From Nitrospirota bacterium (GTDB lineage: Bacteria > Nitrospirota > JACRHL01): a stretch of 64,000 nt of DNA. Both the position numbers and the translations under genes were made by a program. The notes under the pieces were generated by a model. That model saw nothing but the letters and a program-made list of their open reading frames with translations, was not told where the DNA came from and searched no databases. This document shows, piece after piece, positions 1,590-11,427 of this stretch. Position 1 is the stretch's first letter. Each line of letters opens with the position of its first letter. The stretch is taken from assembly GCA_029858285.1 (NCBI GenBank), contig JAOUFN010000001.1, forward strand, positions 62,001 to 126,000, given 5' to 3'.

Positions 1590-1618
1590 TTGACAATATA
1601 TAAGAATATTCTTATATT
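1590..1618 (+). promoter_or_regulatory. sigma70-type promoter of the ArsR/RND/rhodanese block
   Basis: A perfect -35 hexamer TTGACA (1590-1595) and a near-consensus -10 TATATT (1613-1618) are separated by 17 bp. Transcription should start near 1625, leaving a leader of about 45 bases before the ATG at 1671. The surrounding DNA is GC-rich, so this AT-rich element stands out. The spacer and -10 are occupied by the palindrome at 1598-1617, so the promoter should be repressible. Confidence 0.85.
1598..1617. promoter_or_regulatory. 20-bp perfect palindrome, probable ArsR-family operator
   Basis: The inverted repeat is perfect over 20 bp, centred between 1607 and 1608, with core AAGAATATTCTT. It covers most of the spacer and most of the -10 of the promoter at 1590-1618. 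AT-rich dyads over the promoter are the usual binding sites of ArsR/SmtB-family repressors, and one such repressor is the second gene of the transcript (1938). Autoregulation is inferred from this arrangement. Confidence 0.8.
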
Positions 1619-1670
1619 AATGCCATATGGTTTTTTTCGAGGCCTTTTTCACATCGGAGGACATTTCATC

Positions 1671-1892
1671 ATGACCGTCGACGAAGCATTGCGCGCAATG
1701 GCTGGTTCCTTTTTGCTCATCAGCCTGGGGTTGGCCCACTATGTCAGCGAATACTGGCTGTTGTTTTCGGCCTTCATCGGCCTCAACCTGTTGCAGTCGG
1801 CGTTTTCCAAGTGGTGCCCGGCCATGACCATCTTCCGCAAAATGGGTTTGCCCGAGGGCGGGAGCGGGTGTGGGGCCAAGGCAGCCGATTAG
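1671..1892 (+). CDS. DUF2892 (YgaP-type transmembrane) small membrane protein
   Basis: A 73-residue protein with two hydrophobic segments (about residues 8-27 and 29-45) followed by KWCPAMTIFRKMG and a short tail GSGCGAKAAD. This matches the DUF2892 domain, which forms the membrane part of the rhodanese YgaP and also occurs alone; a cysteine follows the second membrane segment as in that family. The start ATG has the Shine-Dalgarno CGGAGG at 1655-1660. It is the first gene of the block, 45 bases before the ArsR gene. The same pairing (DUF2892/rhodanese with an ArsR repressor) occurs in ygaVP of E. coli. Its own activity is unknown; it may anchor or pass on sulfane sulfur with the rhodaneses at 7332 and 7735. 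Confidence 0.8.
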   Translation: MTVDEALRAMAGSFLLISLGLAHYVSEYWLLFSAFIGLNLLQSAFSKWCPAMTIFRKMGLPEGGSGCGAKAAD

Positions 1893-1937
1893 GCTGTACG
1901 GTCAACCGGCTGAATCGCTGAACAGGGAGGCACGGAT

Positions 1938-2267
1938 ATGCGCGCCAACTGCATGGCCGACGTCAGTGACGAAAAACTGGATCGGGGAGCACGTTGCATC
2001 AAGACCCTGGCCCATCCTCTGCGCCTGAAGGTGCTGGCTGTTCTGGCCGGACGCGAGATGTCGGTGGGGGAAATCCTTGACGCCATCGGCACCACCCAGT
2101 CCAATGTCTCCCAGCACCTGTCGCAGTTGCGTGACAAAGGAGTGCTGGCGTCGCGGCGGGAGGGGAATCAGGTGTTCTATCGGGTACGCGATCCAAAGTT
2201 GTTCGACTTGCTGGCGCTGGTGAGAGAGTTGTTCTGCGACCGGCCTGTGGACGGGTGGGCGGCATGA
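1938..2267 (+). CDS. ArsR/SmtB-family transcriptional repressor
   Basis: A 109-residue winged-helix protein. The recognition region reads ILDAIGTTQSNVSQHLSQLR (residues 46-65), followed by the wing REGNQVFYRV. Its ATG sits 7 bases after GGGAGG (1925-1930). Cysteines are at 5, 20 and 100. Cys100, in LFCDRP near the end, corresponds to the C-terminal Cys of persulfide sensors such as SqrR, BigR and YgaV. Their other Cys, in the helix after the HPxR motif, is replaced here by Ala34; Cys20 just before HPLR could take its place. No ArsR-type CVCDL metal site is present. The stop overlaps the next start (ATGA). It most probably binds the palindrome at 1598-1617 and controls the whole block; the inducer is inferred, not shown. 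Confidence 0.88.
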   Translation: MRANCMADVSDEKLDRGARCIKTLAHPLRLKVLAVLAGREMSVGEILDAIGTTQSNVSQHLSQLRDKGVLASRREGNQVFYRVRDPKLFDLLALVRELFCDRPVDGWAA

Positions 2268-3415
2268 ACATCCGGTACCTCCGATTCCGTCTGCCACAAA
2301 TGATTTCAGCAGGCCGCAAGCAGGCCGTCACTCTGGTGGGGTTGGCCGGATTATTTGTCGCGGTGGCCGCGGCCCTGCTGGTCCTGATACCTTCCGGTCC
2401 GGACGTTTTACTGGCGCAAAACGTCACGCCCCCTTCCTCTTCGGAACCGGGAGAGGTCATCACGGTCGCCCCCAAGCAGGTGCCCCTGCGGGTGACGGTG
2501 TATGGGGCGGTTCACGCCGTGTCGGATTCGGTGCTGTCGTCCAAGCTGATGGCGCGGATCGTTCGCCTGCCCCTGCGTGAGGGCGAGCCTGTCCGTCAGG
2601 GCGACCTGTTGGTGGAGCTGGACCACCGTGACCTGGATTCCGATCTGGCCATTGCCCGTGCGGCGGCGGCACGCTCCGGGGCCGCACTGGTGGAAATGCA
2701 GGCCGAGTTCGAGCGTATCCAGCGGCTGTTCGAGGCCGGGGGCGCCTCCACCCGCGACGTGGAGCAGGCCACCAGCCAGAACACCCAGGCCCGGGAGGCG
2801 GTGGCCGAGGCCCGCGCCCAGGTTGAACGGGTGGAAACCCTCATCAACTATGCGCGCATTCTGGCCCCGGCGGACGGCCGCGTGGTGGAGCGTCTGGTGG
2901 AGGTGGGCGAAATGGCCACTCCCGGCCGACCCCTGATGCGGGTGGAATCGTCCGGCTCTCCGGAACTGTGGGCCGACGTGGCTCAGTCCGATCTGTCCCG
3001 CATCGAGGTTGGGGACACTGCCGCGGTCACCGTGCACGGCGTGGACGGGGCGTTGTCGGGAAAGGTGCTGCGCATCGTTCCGGCGGCGGACCCGCAAAGC
3101 CATACGTTTATCGTCAAGATTGTTCTCAAGCGCCATCCGGCGCTTGCGGGGGTGTACAGCGGCATGTTCGGGGAGGCCTCCATCAAGCACGGTAACGAAA
3201 CTGCCGTGACCGTGCCCGAGAGCGCTATCCTGCACCGTTCGGAGGTGGCCGGTGTCTATGTTCTGGATGCCGCCGGGACGCCGCGCTTCACTCTGGTGAG
3301 GCCGGGCCGCCGGGTGGGCAATGAACGGGTGATTTTAAGCGGCCTGTCGGGGGGGGAGCGCGTGCTGGTGGATGCCGCACAGGGGGCGCGCAGTCGCGCA
3401 GGAGGGGGGCGGTGA
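2264..3415 (+). CDS. RND efflux membrane-fusion (periplasmic adaptor) protein
   Basis: Start chosen at the ATG that overlaps the ArsR stop by 4 bases. The 383-residue product has an N-terminal membrane segment (about residues 22-43) and a HlyD/AcrA architecture: first lipoyl half around EGEPVRQGDLLVELDHRDL (residues 105-125), an alpha-helical hairpin rich in Ala/Glu (about 126-190), second lipoyl half (ILAPADGRVVERLVEVGE), a beta-barrel (about 225-300) and a membrane-proximal domain. It bridges the inner-membrane pump encoded next to an outer-membrane channel. No TolC-like gene is in the block. The next start GTG overlaps its stop, so the two are translationally coupled. Confidence 0.9.
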   Translation: MNIRYLRFRLPQMISAGRKQAVTLVGLAGLFVAVAAALLVLIPSGPDVLLAQNVTPPSSSEPGEVITVAPKQVPLRVTVYGAVHAVSDSVLSSKLMARIVRLPLREGEPVRQGDLLVELDHRDLDSDLAIARAAAARSGAALVEMQAEFERIQRLFEAGGASTRDVEQATSQNTQAREAVAEARAQVERVETLINYARILAPADGRVVERLVEVGEMATPGRPLMRVESSGSPELWADVAQSDLSRIEVGDTAAVTVHGVDGALSGKVLRIVPAADPQSHTFIVKIVLKRHPALAGVYSGMFGEASIKHGNETAVTVPESAILHRSEVAGVYVLDAAGTPRFTLVRPGRRVGNERVILSGLSGGERVLVDAAQGARSRAGGGR

Positions 3416-6400
3416 AGTCGGCACTGGGGCTGTCAGGGCGCACGGCGGCGGCGTTTCTCACCTCGCGCCTGACCCCTCTGTTCATTCTGGCCGCGTTGGC
3501 CGCCGGGGTGGTGGCGGTGCTGGCCACCGCCCGTGAGGAAGAACCACAAATCTCCGTTCCGCTGGTGGATGTGCTCATCCCTTATGCAGGGGCCAGCGCG
3601 TCGGAGGTGGCATCGCTGGTGACCACGCCCGCGGAGCGGGTGCTGGCCGAAATCCCCGGCGTGGAGTACGTCTATTCCGCCGCCATGCCCGGCATGGGCG
3701 TGGTGACCGTGCGTTTTGACGTGGGCGAGGATCAGACCGCCAGCGTCGCCAAGCTGTATGACAAGGTGATGAGCAACCGGGACTGGATTCCGGAAACCAC
3801 CGGGGTAGGCACCCCCGTGGTGCGTCCAACGGGCATTGACGACGTGCCGATTGTCACCTTCACGCTGTGGAGCGAGAGTCTGTCGGCCTCTGACCTGCGG
3901 CGCGTGGCGCACGCGGTGGAGGCAGAACTGGCGCGGGTGCCGGGCACGGCACGCATTGCCACCGTGGGCGGCTCGCCCCGGGAACTGCGGGTGGAACTGG
4001 ACCCTGCACGCATGGCCGGCTTCGGCGTCGCCCCGCTGCAGGTGGCGGGGGCGCTGCAACTGGCCAACCAGTCACTGCCGGCGGGCGAACTCATCGCCGC
4101 AGGACGCGAAATTCCGGTGCGAACCGGGGTGTTTTTGCGCGACGAGGACGAGGTGGCGCATCTGGTGGTGGGGGTGTGGGCCGGACGTCCGGTGCGGCTG
4201 GGGGAAGTGGCCGACATCCGCGAAGCTCCGGCGCAGCCCGACTCCTATGTGTGGTACGGCATCGGCGGCGCGCACGGCGGACATGGAACGGCCGAAGGTT
4301 CCGCGCAGGCGGCCACGACCTACCCGGCGGTGACCATCTCGGTGGCCAAGAAGGCGGGCCAGAACGCGGTGGCCATCGCCGAAAAGCTTACCGCCACCAT
4401 GGACGCCCTGCGCGGTGTGGTGATTCCCGACGCGGTGACGGTAACGGTAACCCGCAACTATGGCCACAGTGCGGATGAAAAGGCCAACGAACTGCTCAAA
4501 CACCTGTTGCTGGCCACCGTCGCGGTGGTGATCTTCCTTACCGCCACGCTGGGGCGGCGCGAGGGGGCGGTGGTGCTGGTGGCGATTCCGGTGACCATCC
4601 TGCTCACCCTGTTCGCCAGTTATCTGGTGGGCTTTACCGTCAACCGGGTGACCCTGTTCGCGCTGATCTTTTCCATCGGCATCCTGGTGGACGACGCCAT
4701 CGTGGTGGTGGAAAATATCCACCGCCGCCTGCAGGAAAACCCCACGGGAAACCTGAGGGAGATCACCGTGCACGCCGTCGAGGAGGTGGGTCGGCCCACC
4801 ATTCTGGCCACCTTCACGGTGGTGGCGGCGCTGTTGCCCATGGCCTTTGTGCGCGGACTGATGGGGCCGTACATGGCGCCCATTCCCATCAACGCCTCCC
4901 TGGCCATGCTGTTTTCGCTGGTGGTGGCGTTTGTGGTCAGTCCCTGGCTGGCCTACCGGCTGATGGCCGGAGGCGGGCACGGTCATGCCGCCTCCGGCGA
5001 TCACGCCCCGGAGCCGGCGTCCTCCACACGCATGGAAACCCTGTACCGGCGGCTGCTCACCCCCCTGTTCACCTCGCGCCGACTGCGTCTGTGGGTGCTG
5101 GGCGGGGTGGTCACCGCCATGCTGGCGGCGGTGTCTCTGGCGTATTTCAAACTGGTCACCCTCAAGATGCTGCCGTTTGACAACAAGAGCGAGCTGCAAC
5201 TCGTCATCGACATGCCCGAGGGGGTGGCCCTGGAAGAGACCGCCCGTGTCACCCAGGAGGTCAGCGCATTCCTGGCCGGTCACGCCGACGTGGAAAACTA
5301 TCAGGCCTATGTAGGGTCGGCCTCGCCGATGAATTTTAACGGCCTGGTGCGCCACTACTACATGCGCAGCGGGGCCAATGTGGCAGACGTGGTGGTGAAC
5401 CTCAGCGACAAACACCACCGGAACCGCCAAAGCCACGCCATCGCCCTGTCCCTGCGCGCTCCGCTGCAGGAAATCGCTCGCCGCCACGGCGCCAACCTCA
5501 AGCTGGTGGAGGTGCCCCCCGGTCCGCCGGTGCTGGCGCCCATCGTGGCCGAGGTTTATGGCCCGGACGACGCGGTGCGCAACCGTGTGGCGCGGGATGT
5601 GGCGCGGGTCATGTCCAACACCGAAGGCATTGTGGACGTGGACACCTTCGAGGAGGCGGACCGCCTGGAGACCCTCATCGTCCCGGACCGGGAAAAGGCG
5701 GCGCGTCTGGGGGTGGCGGAGGCCGACATCGTCGCCACCATCCACATGGGCCTCAAGGGGGTGTCTCCTACCGCCCTGCACCGCGCCGGGGAGCGCTATG
5801 CCATGCCGATCAGCCTGCGCCTGCCCCAGGAGATGCGGGAACACATCGGGAATGTCCTGTCCCTGCGGGTGGCCAGCAGCAACGGTGGACTGGTGCCGCT
5901 GCGGGAGATTGTGCAGGTCACCGAACAGCCCGCCACCAAGACTATTTTTCACAAAAACGGGCGTCCGGTGTCCTATGTGGTGGCCGATTCCGTGGGGGAA
6001 GAAGATTCACCCCTCTACGGTCTGTACCGGGCCTGGCGCAATATTCGGGACCAGGTAACCGTGCCCGGCGGGCAGCCGCCGCAGATGACCCTTATTTCAC
6101 CTCCGGATGACCGCGCCACCTACGGCATCAAGTGGGATGGCGAGTGGCAAATCACCTATGAAACCTTTCGCGACATGGGGCTGGCTTATGCGGTGGGGTT
6201 GCTGGTGATTTACCTGCTGGTGGTGGGGCAGTTCCAGACCTTTGGCCTGCCTTTGGTGATCATGGCGCCAATCCCCCTCACCGTGGTGGGTATTTTTCCC
6301 GGCCACGCCTTGATGGGCGCGCACTTTACCGCCACTTCCATGATCGGCATGATCGCACTGGGGGGGATCATCGTGCGCAACTCCATCCTTCTGGTGGATT

Positions 6401-6663
6401 TCATCCGCGCCCGGGAGGCCGAGGGGGTGCCGCTGACCGAGGCCATCATTCAGGCCGGGGCGGTGCGTACCCGCCCCATCGTGCTGACCGCGCTGGCGGC
6501 CATGGTGGGGGCACTGGTAATCCTGATGGACCCGATCTTCCAGGGCATGGCGGTGAGCCTTTTGTTCGGCATGTTCGCCTCCACCCTGTTGACGCTGGTG
6601 GTGATTCCGCTGGTCTACTTCATGGTCTACAGCGGTCGGGTGGTGGCTGTCGGGGAGGAGTGA
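3412..6663 (+). CDS. RND-superfamily efflux permease (AcrB/HAE1-like)
   Basis: At 1083 residues it has the usual length of the family. TM1 lies near residues 18-38; two large periplasmic domains separate the two halves. The TM4 signature with the proton-relay aspartates reads GILVDDAIVVVENIHRRL (near residue 422), and the C-terminal half has the matching helix with GGIIVRNSILLVDF. Start is GTG, overlapping the adaptor stop. The motif fits the HAE1/hydrophobic type rather than heavy-metal CzcA, but family motifs do not fix the substrate. Two His/Gly-rich stretches are unusual: GGAHGGHG near residue 285 and GGGHGHAASGDH near residue 522. They could bind metal but may only be linkers. Expression with rhodaneses suggests export of a sulfur-related or oxidising toxicant; this is inference. 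Confidence 0.93.
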   Translation: MKSALGLSGRTAAAFLTSRLTPLFILAALAAGVVAVLATAREEEPQISVPLVDVLIPYAGASASEVASLVTTPAERVLAEIPGVEYVYSAAMPGMGVVTVRFDVGEDQTASVAKLYDKVMSNRDWIPETTGVGTPVVRPTGIDDVPIVTFTLWSESLSASDLRRVAHAVEAELARVPGTARIATVGGSPRELRVELDPARMAGFGVAPLQVAGALQLANQSLPAGELIAAGREIPVRTGVFLRDEDEVAHLVVGVWAGRPVRLGEVADIREAPAQPDSYVWYGIGGAHGGHGTAEGSAQAATTYPAVTISVAKKAGQNAVAIAEKLTATMDALRGVVIPDAVTVTVTRNYGHSADEKANELLKHLLLATVAVVIFLTATLGRREGAVVLVAIPVTILLTLFASYLVGFTVNRVTLFALIFSIGILVDDAIVVVENIHRRLQENPTGNLREITVHAVEEVGRPTILATFTVVAALLPMAFVRGLMGPYMAPIPINASLAMLFSLVVAFVVSPWLAYRLMAGGGHGHAASGDHAPEPASSTRMETLYRRLLTPLFTSRRLRLWVLGGVVTAMLAAVSLAYFKLVTLKMLPFDNKSELQLVIDMPEGVALEETARVTQEVSAFLAGHADVENYQAYVGSASPMNFNGLVRHYYMRSGANVADVVVNLSDKHHRNRQSHAIALSLRAPLQEIARRHGANLKLVEVPPGPPVLAPIVAEVYGPDDAVRNRVARDVARVMSNTEGIVDVDTFEEADRLETLIVPDREKAARLGVAEADIVATIHMGLKGVSPTALHRAGERYAMPISLRLPQEMREHIGNVLSLRVASSNGGLVPLREIVQVTEQPATKTIFHKNGRPVSYVVADSVGEEDSPLYGLYRAWRNIRDQVTVPGGQPPQMTLISPPDDRATYGIKWDGEWQITYETFRDMGLAYAVGLLVIYLLVVGQFQTFGLPLVIMAPIPLTVVGIFPGHALMGAHFTATSMIGMIALGGIIVRNSILLVDFIRAREAEGVPLTEAIIQAGAVRTRPIVLTALAAMVGALVILMDPIFQGMAVSLLFGMFASTLLTLVVIPLVYFMVYSGRVVAVGEE

Positions 6664-6745
6664 CGGCGGCAAGGGGGGCGCGGGATGGACATTGCCGGGC
6701 CGGTGGGGCATATACTGAAAAAAACCTCGGGTGGGAGTTCGACCC

Positions 6746-7300
6746 ATGCATAAGAATTCTTGCGCAATTTCATTCCGGCGGGCACGCCGTGCAACTCTTG
6801 TGGCCTTGGCACTGGCAGGGCTGGCACTGGCGGCCACGACGGCGGTCGCCAGCGGCGAAACGGACGCCGCCCGGGCCGACCGGCTGGAGCGGGAACTGGC
6901 CGATCTGAAGGCCCACATGGGGCCGATCGCCGACATGAACGGGGTGCCCCTGGCGGAACTGAAGGCTTTTGCCGGGGTGCTGTCGCCGGAAATGCGCGGG
7001 CTGGCCATCGACCTGTCGGCCAAGTCGGGCGAATATTGCCTGCGCGATCCCCAGGGGGGCCGTTTCATGGTGCATGTGTCGGAGCGTCCGACGCAAACGC
7101 CGGAGGACGTACTCTATTTTGTGGCCGCCGATTCGCTCACCGGTGCCGGGCTGGATGTGGCCAAACTGCCGACCCTGCCCATGGAATTGGGTAAAATGAC
7201 TCCGCGCCAGTGGTATTTTTACAGCGGCGATTATGTGGAGCCGCATCACCGGGGCAAACTGGGCCGCGAATACCTGGTGCTTGCGCTGGACATCCGCTGA
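6746..7300 (+). CDS. exported protein of unknown function
   Basis: I do not recognise this 184-residue protein. From the ATG at 6746 it has a basic start, a hydrophobic core (ATLVALALAGLALAATTAV) and a probable signal-peptidase site near ASG-ET at residue 36. A coiled-coil-like stretch (ADRLERELADLKAHMG) follows, then a mixed alpha/beta part with one cysteine in GEYCLRDPQGG and a C-terminal HH in VEPHHRGKLGREY. An in-frame GTG at 6731 is an alternative start. It lies between the RND pump and the rhodaneses on the same strand, with an 82-base gap before it, so it probably acts in the periplasm as part of the same system. Confidence 0.6.
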   Translation: MHKNSCAISFRRARRATLVALALAGLALAATTAVASGETDAARADRLERELADLKAHMGPIADMNGVPLAELKAFAGVLSPEMRGLAIDLSAKSGEYCLRDPQGGRFMVHVSERPTQTPEDVLYFVAADSLTGAGLDVAKLPTLPMELGKMTPRQWYFYSGDYVEPHHRGKLGREYLVLALDIR

Positions 7301-7331
7301 CCGGCCGGGAAGATTTTCGACGAAGGATTGA

Positions 7332-7745
7332 ATGGGAGTGCCGAACGTCATTTCGGTGGTGCTGGGCACCGTGTTGCTGGGCGCACTGTTCGGGCCGACT
7401 CTCCTGTGCGCCATCAAGGGTGTGAAGGGAATGAGCGCGGCGGAATTGCGTCGGCTGCGCAAGGGGATTGAGCGCAAGAATTTACTGCTCCTCGACGTGC
7501 GCAGTGATGGTGAATTTCAGGGCGGCCACATCAGCGGCGCCAGGCACCTGCCTCTGGACCGGCTCAAGGAGGGGTTGCCCCTGCTGGACGCCCTCAGGGA
7601 GCGGAATGTGGTGGTGGTGTGCGCCTCCGGGCGGCGCTCGGCTCTGGCCGCCCTGCGCCTGAAAGGGGCCGGGTTCAACAACGTGTATAACCTCAGTGGC
7701 GGCATGCTGGCGTGGGGCAAGGAGGACGTTGTTCGTGGCAAGTAA
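7332..7745 (+). CDS. membrane-anchored rhodanese-domain protein 1
   Basis: A 137-residue protein: an N-terminal membrane anchor (residues 5-27) and one rhodanese domain. The catalytic loop reads VVVCASGRRSALAA with the active cysteine near residue 97; the CDC25-like loop has the six-residue form typical of sulfurtransferases. LLLDVRSDGEFQGGHISGARHLP is the standard N-terminal half of the fold. A rhodanese moves sulfane sulfur from a donor to thiols or cyanide. AAGGAT-type Shine-Dalgarno at about 7322-7327. The next gene overlaps its 3' end by 11 bases. The domain could face either side of the membrane; the sequence does not decide this firmly. Confidence 0.88.
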   Translation: MGVPNVISVVLGTVLLGALFGPTLLCAIKGVKGMSAAELRRLRKGIERKNLLLLDVRSDGEFQGGHISGARHLPLDRLKEGLPLLDALRERNVVVVCASGRRSALAALRLKGAGFNNVYNLSGGMLAWGKEDVVRGK

Positions 7746-8265
7746 TGCAGCAATTGGGGCGGGACATCCGCATCCCCACCGGCCGGGCCGCTTCGGTCAT
7801 CTGGTCACGGTGCTGCGCTGGGCGCTTGTCGCCCTGGTGCTGCTGGTGCTGCTGACCATGCTGCTGCCGCCGGGCATCCACGGCATGGGGAGTATTTCCG
7901 CCACGGAACTGAACAGCCGTCTGGGTGCCGGAGTGGCGGGAACGGGGGGGACCACCGGTATTTCCAACCATATTTCCAATATTTCCGGGCGTGCTGATGT
8001 GCCATTGGTGCTGGACGTGCGCACCGGCCCTGAGTTCCGTTCCGGCCACATCGCCGGGGCGCTGGGAGTGCCACTGCACATGGTGCCGTTCCGGTTGGGC
8101 ACGCTCTCGGCCCTGAACGGGCGGGAGGTGGTGGTGGTGTGCCTGTCGGGACACCGTTCGCGGGTGGCCGGTCTGCTGCTGCGTCTGGCGGGGTTTTCCC
8201 GGCTGGAGAACCTGGACGGAGGCATGGCGGGGTGGATCGCAAAAGGGCTGCCGTCCGTGTCCTGA
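7735..8265 (+). CDS. membrane-anchored rhodanese-domain protein 2
   Basis: The start is set at GTG 7735 because a full AAGGAGG (7719-7725) lies 9 bases before it; this gives 176 residues and an 11-base overlap with the first rhodanese. A basic leader is followed by a strong membrane segment (WALVALVLLVLLTMLLPPG) and a rhodanese domain with LVLDVRTGPEFRSGHIAGALGVP and the catalytic loop VVVCLSGHRSRVAG. It is a diverged duplicate of its neighbour, with a Gly/Thr/Ser-rich insertion before the domain (GVAGTGGTTGISNHISNISG). Two anchored rhodaneses in a row suggest a sulfur relay at the membrane. Function beyond sulfur transfer is inferred. Confidence 0.85.
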   Translation: MASNAAIGAGHPHPHRPGRFGHLVTVLRWALVALVLLVLLTMLLPPGIHGMGSISATELNSRLGAGVAGTGGTTGISNHISNISGRADVPLVLDVRTGPEFRSGHIAGALGVPLHMVPFRLGTLSALNGREVVVVCLSGHRSRVAGLLLRLAGFSRLENLDGGMAGWIAKGLPSVS

Positions 8266-8342
8266 ATCGTCCGGATGGATGACAACACCGGCTCTCCACC
8301 GGGGTACGCCGGGGGGACCACAAGGAAAAGGGGATTTCTATC

Positions 8343-9335
8343 ATGATGCACATGGGCGGAAAGATACTGACGGGAATGGCGGGTCTGGCGGCGTTGGCGG
8401 GGCTGATGATGACTGCCCCGGCCGCGCTGGCGGCGGATTGGACGGGGATGCCCATGGTGGCCTACCCGAAGGACAACGCGTACTCCCCGGCCAAGGCGGA
8501 ACTGGGCAAAAAACTGTTCTTTGAACCGCGCCTTTCGGGCTCCAACATCATGAGCTGCGCGACCTGTCACAATCCGGCACTGGGGTGGGCGGACGGCCTC
8601 AAGCTCGGCAAGGGGCACAACATGGGGCAACTGGGCCGCCATACCCCCACGGTGATCAACAGCGCCTTCTCATCGGCCCAGTTTTGGGACGGCCGCGCCG
8701 CCACACTGGAAGATCAGGCCAAGGGCCCCATCGTGTCCGCCGGTGAGATGAACCAGGACGCCACGGAACTGGTGACGGAACTTTCCGCCATCCCTGGCTA
8801 TGTGGCGGCTTTTGCCCAGGTGTTCCCCGGCGAGGCCATCTCGCTGGACACCATCGCCAAAGCCATCGCCACTTATGAGCGCGAGGTGGTCAGCGACAAC
8901 TCCGCATTCGACACCTTCATGCGCGGCGACGCTACCGCCATCAGCGATTCGGCGCGGCGCGGCTGGGACCTGTTCCGGGGCAAGGCCCAGTGCCTGAGCT
9001 GCCATTCCGGCCCCAACTTCAGCGATGGCCGTTTTCACGACATCGGCGTGAATGACGGCGATCCGGGGCGCGGCAAGGTGAGCGGGAAATCCGGCGACCA
9101 GTTCAAGTTCAAGACCCCCACTGTGCGTGACGTCACCCGCACTGCCCCATTCCTGCACAATGGTCAGGAAGCCACTCTTCTGGACGTGGTGAAATTCTAC
9201 AATCGGGGTGGCGATCGCAAGGGGAGTGAAATCAAGGCGTTGGGGCTGTCCGATGCAGACATGGCGGACCTGGTGGCATTCATGAAAAGCCTCACCGGCA
9301 GGCCCGTGCTTGTGACTTTGCCGGAACTTCCCTAG
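8343..9335 (+). CDS. MauG/CcpA-like di-haem cytochrome c peroxidase
   Basis: A 330-residue exported protein with a signal peptide ending near ALAAD (residue 31). Two CxxCH haem sites are present: MSCATCHNPALGWADG (about residue 77) and QCLSCHSGPNFSDG (about residue 220). The body matches the di-haem peroxidase family: GRHTPTVINSAFSSAQFWDGRA and, at the C-terminal end, KTPTVRDVTRTAPFLHNG. These periplasmic enzymes reduce peroxides or oxidise protein or small-molecule substrates with electrons from small cytochromes. ATGs at 8343 and 8346 are both possible, preceded by AAGGAAAAGGGG. Within the block it may oxidise a sulfur compound or protect against peroxide; that role is inferred. Confidence 0.9.
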   Translation: MMHMGGKILTGMAGLAALAGLMMTAPAALAADWTGMPMVAYPKDNAYSPAKAELGKKLFFEPRLSGSNIMSCATCHNPALGWADGLKLGKGHNMGQLGRHTPTVINSAFSSAQFWDGRAATLEDQAKGPIVSAGEMNQDATELVTELSAIPGYVAAFAQVFPGEAISLDTIAKAIATYEREVVSDNSAFDTFMRGDATAISDSARRGWDLFRGKAQCLSCHSGPNFSDGRFHDIGVNDGDPGRGKVSGKSGDQFKFKTPTVRDVTRTAPFLHNGQEATLLDVVKFYNRGGDRKGSEIKALGLSDADMADLVAFMKSLTGRPVLVTLPELP

Positions 9336-9367
9336 AATCAAGGCCGATAGCAAAAGGACATAACCTC

Positions 9368-9760
9368 ATGACCAACTATGGAATTGAGCGCAACCTCAAG
9401 GCGGGTTACGAGCAGGCGGTGGAGCAGGTGACGGCGGCCCTCAAGGAGCAGGGTTTCGGCATCATCACCAGCATCGACGTGAAGGCCACCATGAAGGCCA
9501 AGCTGGACCGGGATTTCCGGCGCTACGTGATCCTGGGCGCCTGTAATCCGGAGTTCGCCTGGCAGGCCCTCAACGCGGAGCCCGGCATCGGTCTGCTGCT
9601 GCCGTGCAATGTGGTGGTGGAGGAAGTAACGGGCGGTGGCAGCCGGGCGTCGGCCATTGATCCGGAAACCCTTCTGGGAGTGACCGGGCGGGACGACCTG
9701 AAGGACATGGCGCTGGAGGTCAAAACCCGCATCACGCGGGCGCTCGACAAATGTGTCTGA
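9368..9760 (+). CDS. DUF302 domain protein
   Basis: A 130-residue protein without signal peptide that matches DUF302 along its length: paired beta-alpha elements with KEQGFGIITSIDVKATMKAKL and the typical YVILGACNPEFAWQAL followed by GLLLPCNVVVEE. Two cysteines (in GACNP and LPCNV) are characteristic of this family. The biochemical function is not established. It recurs next to oxidative-stress and sulfur genes, which fits its place 32 bases after the MauG-like gene. GC content and strand match the rest of the block. Confidence 0.85.
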   Translation: MTNYGIERNLKAGYEQAVEQVTAALKEQGFGIITSIDVKATMKAKLDRDFRRYVILGACNPEFAWQALNAEPGIGLLLPCNVVVEEVTGGGSRASAIDPETLLGVTGRDDLKDMALEVKTRITRALDKCV

Positions 9761-9865
9761 AGACAGTGGAACACTGCGGCGGGGTTTTCGGTAATGGCGC
9801 CGGGCCCCCTGCCGGGTGACTGACAAGCGGGGCGAGGGTGGCGCGCCGCAACCGGGGAGAAAAAA

Positions 9866-11254
9866 ATGAAGCGGATTGTTTGTGTGACCGCTCTGGCGGC
9901 CCTGATGGGTTCGGCGGCACCGGTTTGGGCTACCAACGGCTACCAGTTGACCGGCGTCGGGCAGATGCAGAAGTCCATGGGTGGCGCGGTAACCGCTGCT
10001 CCCATGGATACCATGACCGCCATCAGCAACCCCGCCGGCATGGCGCGGGTGGGGCAGCGGGCGGATTTTTCCATGGAAGCGTTCATGCCGGTGCGCTCGG
10101 TGGATTTTGCCGCTCTAAATGCGCCGGGGACCCTCAACACGAGCACCGAGGGTGGCTCGGAGCTTTACGGCATCCCGTCCGTAGGGTGGGTGGCCAACGC
10201 CTTTGGTCGTGACAACTATTACTTTGGCGGGGGTATGTTCGCCACCAGCGGCATGGGGGTGGATTACGAGCAGATCACCCTGCAGAGCGCCGCATCTTCC
10301 GGTTTGCCAAACGACATTACGTTCAACGGCTACAGCTCCATCGCCTTCTGGAAAATGGCCCCCACGCTGGCCTGGAACCAGAACGACAGCACCAGCATCG
10401 GCCTTAGCCTGAACGTGGATTATCAGTCACTGACCTTCCGTGAAAAACTCGGTCAGGTGCCGTTCTGGGATGCTCCCCCCGGCCCCAGCACGATCACCCA
10501 GCGCGATGTGAACTTTGACCTTGGTCGCCCCACCAGCCAGTTGGGGGTTGGATTCACCGTAGGGGTACTGCGGGACATCGGTGACACGGTAACGGTCGGC
10601 TTCAACTACGCCAGCAAGCAGGAATTCGGCGACGGCGAGTTCCGGGTTGGTGCGGGTGATCTGGCGATCTTCAATGGCGCCGTGGGTCTACCCGGTGTCT
10701 ACAAACTGGGCGTTGATTATCCGCAGCAGGCCGCCGTTGGCGTGGCGGTGAAGCCGAGTAATCGTGTGTTGGTGGACCTGGACGTGAAATGGATCAACTG
10801 GTCCGCCACCCACGATCAGGTGAGCCTCAAGGGCCCGGCCAACTCGTTTGACACGAATGGTGATGGCATTGGCGACGCCAGCGCCACCCAACTCGCCTTT
10901 GGCTGGGACAACCAGGTGATCTACGCCCTGGGCGTGCAGTTCGTCGCCACCGAAGACCTCAAGCTGCGGGCCGGTTTCAACTACGGCAAATCCCCCATCG
11001 GCCGTGAGGACGTGATGAATAACCTGATCTTCCCGGCGATCGCCGAAAAACACCTGATGATCGGTGCCGATTATCAGTTGGGGGAGCACTGGGGCATCGG
11101 CGGCACCTTCATGAAGGCGTTCAAAAACAGCGTCACCGGAGTGGGGGACGTTCCGGCCGGTTTCCAGTTCGGCACACCGTTTATGGCCGACTCGAACATG
11201 AAGATCTCTCTGGAGGAAACTTCCCTCGGCCTGCTGCTGGACTACAAATTCTGA
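9866..11254 (+). CDS. FadL/TodX-family outer-membrane transport protein
   Basis: A 462-residue outer-membrane beta-barrel with a signal peptide cleaved near VWA-TNGYQ (residue 22). The family start is clear: NGYQLTGVGQMQKSMGGAVTAAP and SNPAGMARVGQRADFSMEAF, corresponding to the N-terminal hatch of FadL. The protein ends in an aromatic residue (LLDYKF) as BAM substrates do. FadL-type channels pass hydrophobic molecules such as fatty acids or aromatics through the outer membrane. It is the last gene of the block, 105 bases after the DUF302 gene, with GGGGAGAA before the ATG, and is followed by a terminator at 11384. Its pairing with an RND pump suggests a lipophilic substrate such as elemental sulfur or an organic compound; this is speculation. 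Confidence 0.9.
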   Translation: MKRIVCVTALAALMGSAAPVWATNGYQLTGVGQMQKSMGGAVTAAPMDTMTAISNPAGMARVGQRADFSMEAFMPVRSVDFAALNAPGTLNTSTEGGSELYGIPSVGWVANAFGRDNYYFGGGMFATSGMGVDYEQITLQSAASSGLPNDITFNGYSSIAFWKMAPTLAWNQNDSTSIGLSLNVDYQSLTFREKLGQVPFWDAPPGPSTITQRDVNFDLGRPTSQLGVGFTVGVLRDIGDTVTVGFNYASKQEFGDGEFRVGAGDLAIFNGAVGLPGVYKLGVDYPQQAAVGVAVKPSNRVLVDLDVKWINWSATHDQVSLKGPANSFDTNGDGIGDASATQLAFGWDNQVIYALGVQFVATEDLKLRAGFNYGKSPIGREDVMNNLIFPAIAEKHLMIGADYQLGEHWGIGGTFMKAFKNSVTGVGDVPAGFQFGTPFMADSNMKISLEETSLGLLLDYKF

Positions 11255-11383: not shown

Positions 11384-11427
11384 CAAAAAAAGGCCGGGCA
11401 GACACCGCGTCTCCCCGGCTTTTTTTA
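11384..11427. terminator. bidirectional rho-independent terminator
   Basis: A run of A (11384-11391), a GCCGGG stem, a loop, CCCGGC and a run of T (11420-11426) give a symmetrical terminator between the convergent FadL gene (ends 11254, plus) and DUF486 gene (ends 11453, minus). It can end transcription from both sides. Confidence 0.85.

Follow-up and report, generated by a model that had tools for sequence, protein, structure and literature searches.

A repressor-gated gene block that joins an RND pump to sulfur-transfer proteins in a Nitrospirota bacterium and probably serves to cope with reactive sulfur

Introduction

Several described bacterial systems place ArsR-family repressors or RND (resistance-nodulation-division) pumps beside genes for reactive sulfur, and they are the closest counterparts of the gene block analyzed here, which comprises ten genes of a Nitrospirota bacterium and lies within a 64 kb stretch of contig JAOUFN010000001.1 (the whole stretch is called the window). 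Persulfide-sensing repressors of the BigR/SqrR type are defined by a pair of cysteines in helices α2 and α5 (PMC10509353), and RND genes near persulfide-sensing ArsRs were noted in 2025 (PMC12423496). In Synechocystis, the ArsR-like SuoR represses suoS, the gene for sulfide:quinone oxidoreductase (SQR) (PMC4307280), and the sqr operon is reported to contain a DUF302-type gene (PMC5061849). In Azospira suillum PS, the genes Dsui_3440-3443 (SQR, RND permease, periplasmic adaptor and an unknown protein) were highly expressed under H2S, where mutations in them affected fitness and the expression of a DUF2892 gene rose about 10-fold (PMC5358917). Here, we describe how the block in the window compares with these systems, using its close relatives and a wide sample of pump loci.

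Results

The block is a predicted repressor-controlled operon that we consider probably devoted to coping with reactive sulfur, that is, sulfide-derived persulfides and polysulfides, because its pump core recurs across phyla beside SQR and known sulfur sensors. The core consists of a DUF2892 membrane protein with a YgaP-like transmembrane (TM) domain and a conserved cysteine (1671-1892; PF11127, E=1.4e-11), an RND periplasmic adaptor (2264-3415, alternative start GTG at 2255; PF16576, TIGR01730 178 bits over cut-off) and an RND permease of 1083 amino acids (3412-6663; PF00873, 491 bits), all on the + strand like the rest of the block. A permease profile detected at least 589 relatives in named genomes, and the best 80 of these belong to Pseudomonadota, Acidobacteriota, Bacteroidota, Nitrospirota, Verrucomicrobiota and others. 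The core spans many phyla and is repeatedly accompanied by SQR, rhodanese, DUF302, OsmC or thioredoxin. In the pump loci compared, 60 DUF2892 genes stand no more than 4 kb from the pump, 59 of them on its strand, and one lies farther out (P=6e-19); the corresponding near and far counts were 35 and 3 for ArsR and 49 and 5 for TolC. Near the pump, the same strand carried 11 of 11 SQR, 8 of 9 OsmC, 8 of 8 thioredoxin, 11 of 13 rhodanese and 5 of 5 DUF302 genes. The enrichment of near over far positions was strong for DUF2892, TolC and ArsR and weak for SQR (P=0.02), rhodanese (P=0.03) and DUF302 (P=0.08), partly because long operons reach into the far zone.

The association with SQR was also evident within the phylum. 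Both a pump and an SQR, usually one each, are present in 45 sampled genomes of the phylum, and in 14 of these 45 they lie at most 10 kb apart on the same strand, with well under one such pair expected by chance in genomes of about 3 Mb; the 14 pairs span three families, most of them in one Nitrospira-like family, and are not independent. On the permease tree, which was built with FastTree and is approximate, the presence of SQR requires at least 10 label changes, that of rhodanese 8 and that of DUF302 5 (counts not compared with shuffled labels). In Salegentibacter (Bacteroidota, L121), a member of a distant phylum, a large part of the window's set is found again in the order SQR-TolC-adaptor-RND-DUF2892-DUF302-rhodanese-rhodanese. 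In Vibrio metoecus (L100, 5549-13162), a BigR-type ArsR with the classical cysteine pair is followed by two YeeE-like genes, the adaptor and the RND gene, whose frame has one in-frame stop near 10585, and the divergent side encodes DUF2892 and a CoA-disulfide-reductase-like protein ending in a rhodanese domain.

Other arrangements were observed around the pump. In Nitrospira sp. UBA6493 (L078, 5472-8898), genes for SQR, a Rieske-like protein and a cytochrome b-like protein directly precede DUF2892-adaptor-RND, and this arrangement may link a bc-type complex to the oxidation of sulfide. Immediately 3' of the RND gene, a small protein without a Pfam match is encoded at L108 (13245-13553) and seven other loci, which belong to Bacteroidota and, in one case, Calditrichota. 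In Comamonadaceae (L093, 16192-17612; L087, L092 and L098), a SLAC1/TDT-family exporter and CsoR-family repressors stand near the pump, possibly as another sulfur sensor-exporter arrangement.

The control region of the block contains a promoter (TTGACA-17-TATATT, 1590-1618, + strand) with an 11/12 match to the consensus. Among the 4 sites scoring 9/12 or more over 13 kb it ranks first, against 2.0 ± 1.5 such sites expected. The spacer of this promoter is occupied by a perfect 20-bp palindrome at 1598-1617 (half-sites ATATAAGAAT and ATTCTTATAT, together ATATAAGAATATTCTTATAT), which extends into the -10 box and which the sequence-only reading of the window had not listed. It is the only palindrome of at least 18 bp in the 64 kb, and ten Markov-random sequences yielded none of 20 bp. 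The promoter is also present upstream of the block in three relatives from other genera of the same family (G001, G002 and G003), at the same position and with the same spacing. The palindrome core AGAATATTCTTATATT is conserved at two of the corresponding loci (L037 and L038), and only the right half at the third (L138); the sites in the three genera, with the same layout and spacing, read TTGACAGACTATTAGAATATTCTTATATT, TTGACTTATAATAAGAATATTCTTATATT and TTGACATATTATAATTATATTCCTATATT, the left half having diverged in the last. Because two of the three other family members have the site at the same spacing (the third having diverged), the palindrome is very likely the operator of ArsR, and a conserved palindrome inside the promoter upholds the repressor gate proposed earlier for the block. 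It is not of the ATTC-N8-GAAT type described for SqrR/YgaV (PMC9774250).

At the other end, a strong intrinsic terminator was found at 11386-11426 (fold z=-6.2 for the surrounding 71-base stretch), just past 11254, where the block had first been said to end. It was missed by the consensus scan and is probably shared with the convergent gene at 11803-11453. A near-consensus promoter in front and a terminator behind had been claimed before, and both are present; judged from their positions, they would serve all ten genes, and the 77-105 bases that separate the di-haem and FadL genes from the genes in front of them leave room for further starts. The ten genes occupy 1671-11254 on one strand, and both the open reading frames and the Pfam matches agree with the order first described, with ArsR second and three coding overlaps: 4 bases between ArsR and adaptor (ATGA), 4 between adaptor and permease (GTGA) and 11 between the two rhodaneses. 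Upstream of the block, a tetratricopeptide-repeat sulfotransferase protein is encoded at 23-1342, and G003 has two tandem paralogues of it (L037, 3117-6332).

The block is well conserved in the family to which the window's genome (G000, an assembly of 2.56 Mb) belongs. DUF2892, ArsR, both rhodaneses, DUF302 and the FadL-type channel are present in all four sampled genera. The order in G003 is DUF2892-ArsR-adaptor-RND-(CARDB protein)-exported protein-rhodanese-rhodanese-MauG-DUF302-FadL, where FadL is truncated at the edge of the contig, and that in G001 is DUF2892-SQR-ArsR-TolC-adaptor-RND-exported protein-rhodanese-rhodanese-DUF302-FadL. G002 is broken over contigs and shows DUF2892-SQR-ArsR-TolC and rhodanese-rhodanese-DUF302-FadL, with a homologue of the exported protein on another small contig; the RND gene was not found in these broken contigs. 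SQR and TolC are thus in the block of one pair (G001 and G002), and MauG is in that of the other pair (the window and G003), which has neither SQR nor TolC. A parting of the genes in relatives had been named as grounds for giving up the initial reading, and most of them stay together in four genera.

The repressor (1938-2267; PF12840/PF01022) differs from described persulfide sensors in its cysteines. It has Cys5, Cys20 and Cys100, with Ala34 at the position of the BigR α2 cysteine, and its predicted structure (pLDDT 90) places Cys20 in α1 (residues 11-24) and Cys100 at the end of α5 (residues 87-100). The three family orthologues likewise lack the α2 cysteine and have Cys5, Cys20 and Cys100, and cysteines in α1 and α5 were also found in the ArsRs of L052 and L053, which are inferred to be Leptospirillum-like. 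Of the α2/α5 pair, therefore, the window's ArsR has only the α5 half, and it scores 74 bits against the BigR equivalog NF040642 (cut-off 155). It also lacks the α3 CxC motif of metal and arsenic sensors, with no cysteine from residue 21 to 99. The neighborhood is that of a BigR/SqrR-type sensor, with rhodaneses in the window's block and SQR in those of relatives. The comparison with BigR/SqrR made from the sequence alone accordingly stands for the context of DUF2892, rhodanese and ArsR and fails for the sensor, in which one of the two defining cysteines is absent. Because the α2 cysteine is absent, the window's ArsR falls outside the described class by its defining feature, yet it may work like a member of it. 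Outside the window's family, 11 pump-linked ArsRs have the BigR/SqrR α2/α5 pair, at least 8 have a metal-type CxC, and others have neither. The link to sulfur that had been suggested at the outset gains from these 11 persulfide-sensor-type ArsRs and from the company that the pump core keeps with SQR, rhodanese, DUF302, OsmC and thioredoxin in unrelated phyla.

The permease belongs to the RND superfamily (AcrB/MexK-like) by its PF00873 match and by the paired aspartates in TM4, the proton-relay residues D427 and D428, which are invariant in eight aligned permeases. It scores 255 bits on the heavy-metal RND model (CusA/CzcA, TIGR00914; cut-off 701) and 439 bits on the multidrug RND subfamily NF033617 (cut-off 1250), below the cut-off in both cases, and its closest solved structure is MexK, a distant match of 218 bits over about 1,050 residues. 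Outer-membrane efflux proteins that could serve the pump are encoded on two further contigs of the window's genome. On the permease tree, the window's family falls with Pseudomonadota pumps and not with those of Nitrospira, and other genomes of the window's phylum cluster with Nitrospira and Thermodesulfovibrio loci. Because of the grouping with Pseudomonadota, the pump of this family may have been acquired horizontally.

Downstream of the pump, the block encodes several candidate sulfur-transfer proteins. Rhodanese 1 (7332-7745; PF00581, E=5e-21; active site CASGRR) and rhodanese 2 (7735-8265, GTG start; PF00581, E=6e-13; active site CLSGHR) are both membrane-anchored and retain the active-site cysteine. 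The charges flanking the anchor of rhodanese 1 indicate an N-out/C-in orientation (0 versus 5-7 positive residues in three genera), and those of rhodanese 2 an N-in/C-out orientation that is clear in G001 (6 versus 1), weak in the window (2 versus 1) and tied in G003 (2 versus 2). Because of this bias, rhodanese 1 is predicted to face the cytoplasm and rhodanese 2 the periplasm, so that each face of the inner membrane would have one. The W/F-Cys motif of DUF2892 is invariant in ten aligned proteins, and a cysteine-containing tail is frequent; rhodanese and DUF2892 are encoded by separate genes, and the block contains no fusion of the YgaP type. The cytosolic DUF302 protein (9368-9760; PF03625, 83 bits versus a cut-off of 23) has two cysteines (GACNP and LPCN) that are invariant in an alignment covering the window's family as well as Acidobacteria, Bacteroidota and Thermus. 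It had been put forward as a new component, a claim that the DUF302-type gene of the Synechocystis sqr operon removes. The last gene encodes a FadL/TodX-type outer-membrane channel (9866-11254; PF03349, E=1.7e-28, 99.7 bits versus a cut-off of 29.7). The part first suggested for this channel, and the lipophilic product that it and the pump were to pass, are guesses.

The exported di-haem enzyme (8343-9335) belongs to the CCP/MauG family, with two CXXCH haem motifs (CATCH and CLSCH) and a PF03150 score of 197 bits. It scores high on the MauG equivalog TIGR03791 but below the cut-off (285 versus 444 bits), and its nearest matches in the PDB are bacterial cytochrome c peroxidases (216 bits, versus 72 for MauG). 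In MauG, a tyrosine replaces the methionine haem ligand of cytochrome c peroxidases. In the window's enzyme, the tyrosine of KFYNRGG aligns with the methionine of KIM in the Geobacter peroxidase, which we take to be a haem ligand. The earlier proposal that a MauG-like enzyme oxidizes sulfur species, as a core step of the system, was dropped: the gene is missing from two of the four family blocks, and the homologues of G001 and G002 (64-68% identical) are located elsewhere in their genomes. A separate case of pairing was seen in a Nitrospira-like genome (G126; L043, 11888-13141), where a MauG-like gene lies directly 3' of the same RND pump. At a conserved locus of all four family members (G000 C43, G001 C3, G002 C52 and G003 C110), an outer-membrane efflux protein adjoins a second di-haem peroxidase; in G001 and G002, a protein with weak likeness to SoxY separates the two. 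The remaining gene encodes a family-restricted exported protein (6746-7300), found in 4 of 61 genomes including that of the window; it has no Pfam or NCBIfam match, and its weak AlphaFold model (pLDDT 61) has no PDB fold match at E<=0.001.

Discussion

Taken together, the results suggest the following mechanism. An ArsR dimer bound to the palindrome inside the promoter would, as we strongly infer, block RNA polymerase. Sulfane sulfur would bridge cysteines of ArsR, probably Cys20 and Cys100 and not the classical pair, and the promoter would be freed. DUF2892, the two rhodaneses and the two-cysteine DUF302 protein would bind sulfane sulfur and hand it on, and a sulfur-bearing or sulfur-damaged product would be expelled through the RND pump, its adaptor and an outer-membrane channel whose gene lies outside the block. 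The sulfane sulfur would come from the SQR of the block in G001 and G002; the blocks of the window and its nearest relative have no SQR or TolC and encode a MauG-like periplasmic enzyme. More tentatively, we propose that the pump represents a widespread RND subfamily dedicated to the export of reactive sulfur species or their adducts, which rhodaneses at either membrane face would supply, and that in this lineage its switch is a novel type of ArsR sulfur sensor with an α1-α5 cysteine pair.

Several findings weigh against a role in reactive sulfur. The α2 cysteine is missing from the window's ArsR, and some pump-linked ArsRs carry the metal-type CxC. Searches of the window's genome yielded neither a close SQR nor a SoxY, and its sulfite/nitrite reductase matches, which are two-domain proteins unlike DsrA plus DsrB, showed no separate DsrA/DsrB-type pattern (dsr-specific models were not part of the search). 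In Azospira suillum, deletion of the operon did not slow H2S oxidation (PMC5358917), which, together with its expression and fitness effects, is more in keeping with tolerance than with the oxidation step as such. Because the window's genome lacks a close SQR and SoxY, tolerance is likelier than energy metabolism for the block. The same genome has a second sulfur locus (L146, 6939-8618; G000 C11), in which genes for a DsrE-like protein and for an ArsR fused to a rhodanese adjoin that of an SQR-like flavoprotein (30% identity).

Other explanations were weighed against the reactive-sulfur reading. First, the pump may export metal ions, or metal-sulfide complexes formed where sulfide meets metals, with ArsR as a metal or metalloid sensor. 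The CxC motif in several pump-linked ArsRs, in a Thermodesulfovibrio-like group, would suit such a role, as would the export of metal sulfide proposed by the Azospira authors (PMC5358917), and Cys5, Cys20 and Cys100 could form a thiolate metal site. We nevertheless regard metal efflux as unlikely, since the window's ArsR has no α3 CxC, the block contains no metal enzymes, and the permease, with its two-aspartate proton relay, stays far below the cut-off of the CusA/CzcA model (255 versus 701 bits) and reaches 439 bits on the multidrug model. Second, the block may export general hydrophobic toxicants (solvents, quinones or biocides) in the manner of MexJK or TriABC, the sulfur genes serving as damage control. 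MexK as the nearest solved structure and the FadL/TodX-type channel that closes the block speak for this possibility, to which we give similarly little credence; the repeated linkage of SQR, rhodanese, DUF302 and persulfide-sensor ArsRs to the pump in unrelated phyla points to a sulfur-specific role. Finally, a chance assembly of several independent transcription units, in which only the pump core is functionally linked, would fit the variation of MauG, SQR, TolC and the CARDB gene between blocks and a weak 9/12 promoter-like site before DUF302, but it is very improbable given the same order of most genes in four genera, the three coding overlaps and the one conserved promoter-operator.

If the reactive-sulfur reading is correct, it would be useful for understanding how bacteria dispose of excess persulfides and polysulfides, which is only partly understood; oxidation and the export of thiosulfate or sulfite have been described. 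To the best of our knowledge, there is no proven persulfide exporter, and the pump core, found again and again across many phyla in the company of SQR, rhodaneses and persulfide sensors, offers a concrete candidate that can be tested. The export of reactive sulfur may also be the native task of some RND pumps that are catalogued only as multidrug transporters. In addition, the variant ArsR would demonstrate a second cysteine geometry on which the sensing of sulfur has evolved.

Compared with the known systems, the block combines familiar parts in a different way. The MexJK pump of Pseudomonas aeruginosa is of the same permease superfamily, as a distant match only, and we know of no sulfur genes in its operon. 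The Azospira suillum operon also holds an RND pump and adaptor in one operon, and it has an SQR and a shown sulfide response; rhodanese, DUF302, MauG and FadL were not reported there, and the likeness drawn here is one of gene content. RND genes mentioned in salt data for Leptospirillum ferriphilum and in pyrite data for Allochromatium were left out of the comparison, and papers on Thiohalobacter and Lutibacter offered nothing on the pump. The Synechocystis suoSR/suoCT genes share an ArsR-like repressor and a DUF302-type gene with the window, and SQR with the blocks of its relatives, but no RND pump or rhodanese was reported, SuoT is an arsenite transporter and SuoC has no known function. The Vibrio metoecus locus is similar in its adjacent ArsR, adaptor, RND permease (49% identical) and DUF2892, and it differs in its persulfide-type sensor, its YeeE-like transporters, its CoA-disulfide-reductase-like rhodanese fusion and the stop in the RND frame. 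Its pump was suspected of being VexIJK, an identification that we do not claim, since the published account names no locus tags. The BigR/SqrR/YgaV regulons (ygaVP and the bigR operon) share with the window an ArsR with an α5 cysteine, DUF2892 together with rhodanese, and an operator over the promoter. Unlike those repressors, the window's ArsR has Ala34 at α2 and a cysteine in α1, and unlike YgaP, its DUF2892 and rhodanese are separate proteins in a block that includes an RND pump. The sequence-only reading had named no described system with the whole set; our literature search found no paper combining DUF302, rhodanese, ArsR and RND, although RND genes beside such sensors had already been noted. 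In conclusion, the kind of system is already known, and its so far undescribed elements are this assembly and the ArsR sensor variant.

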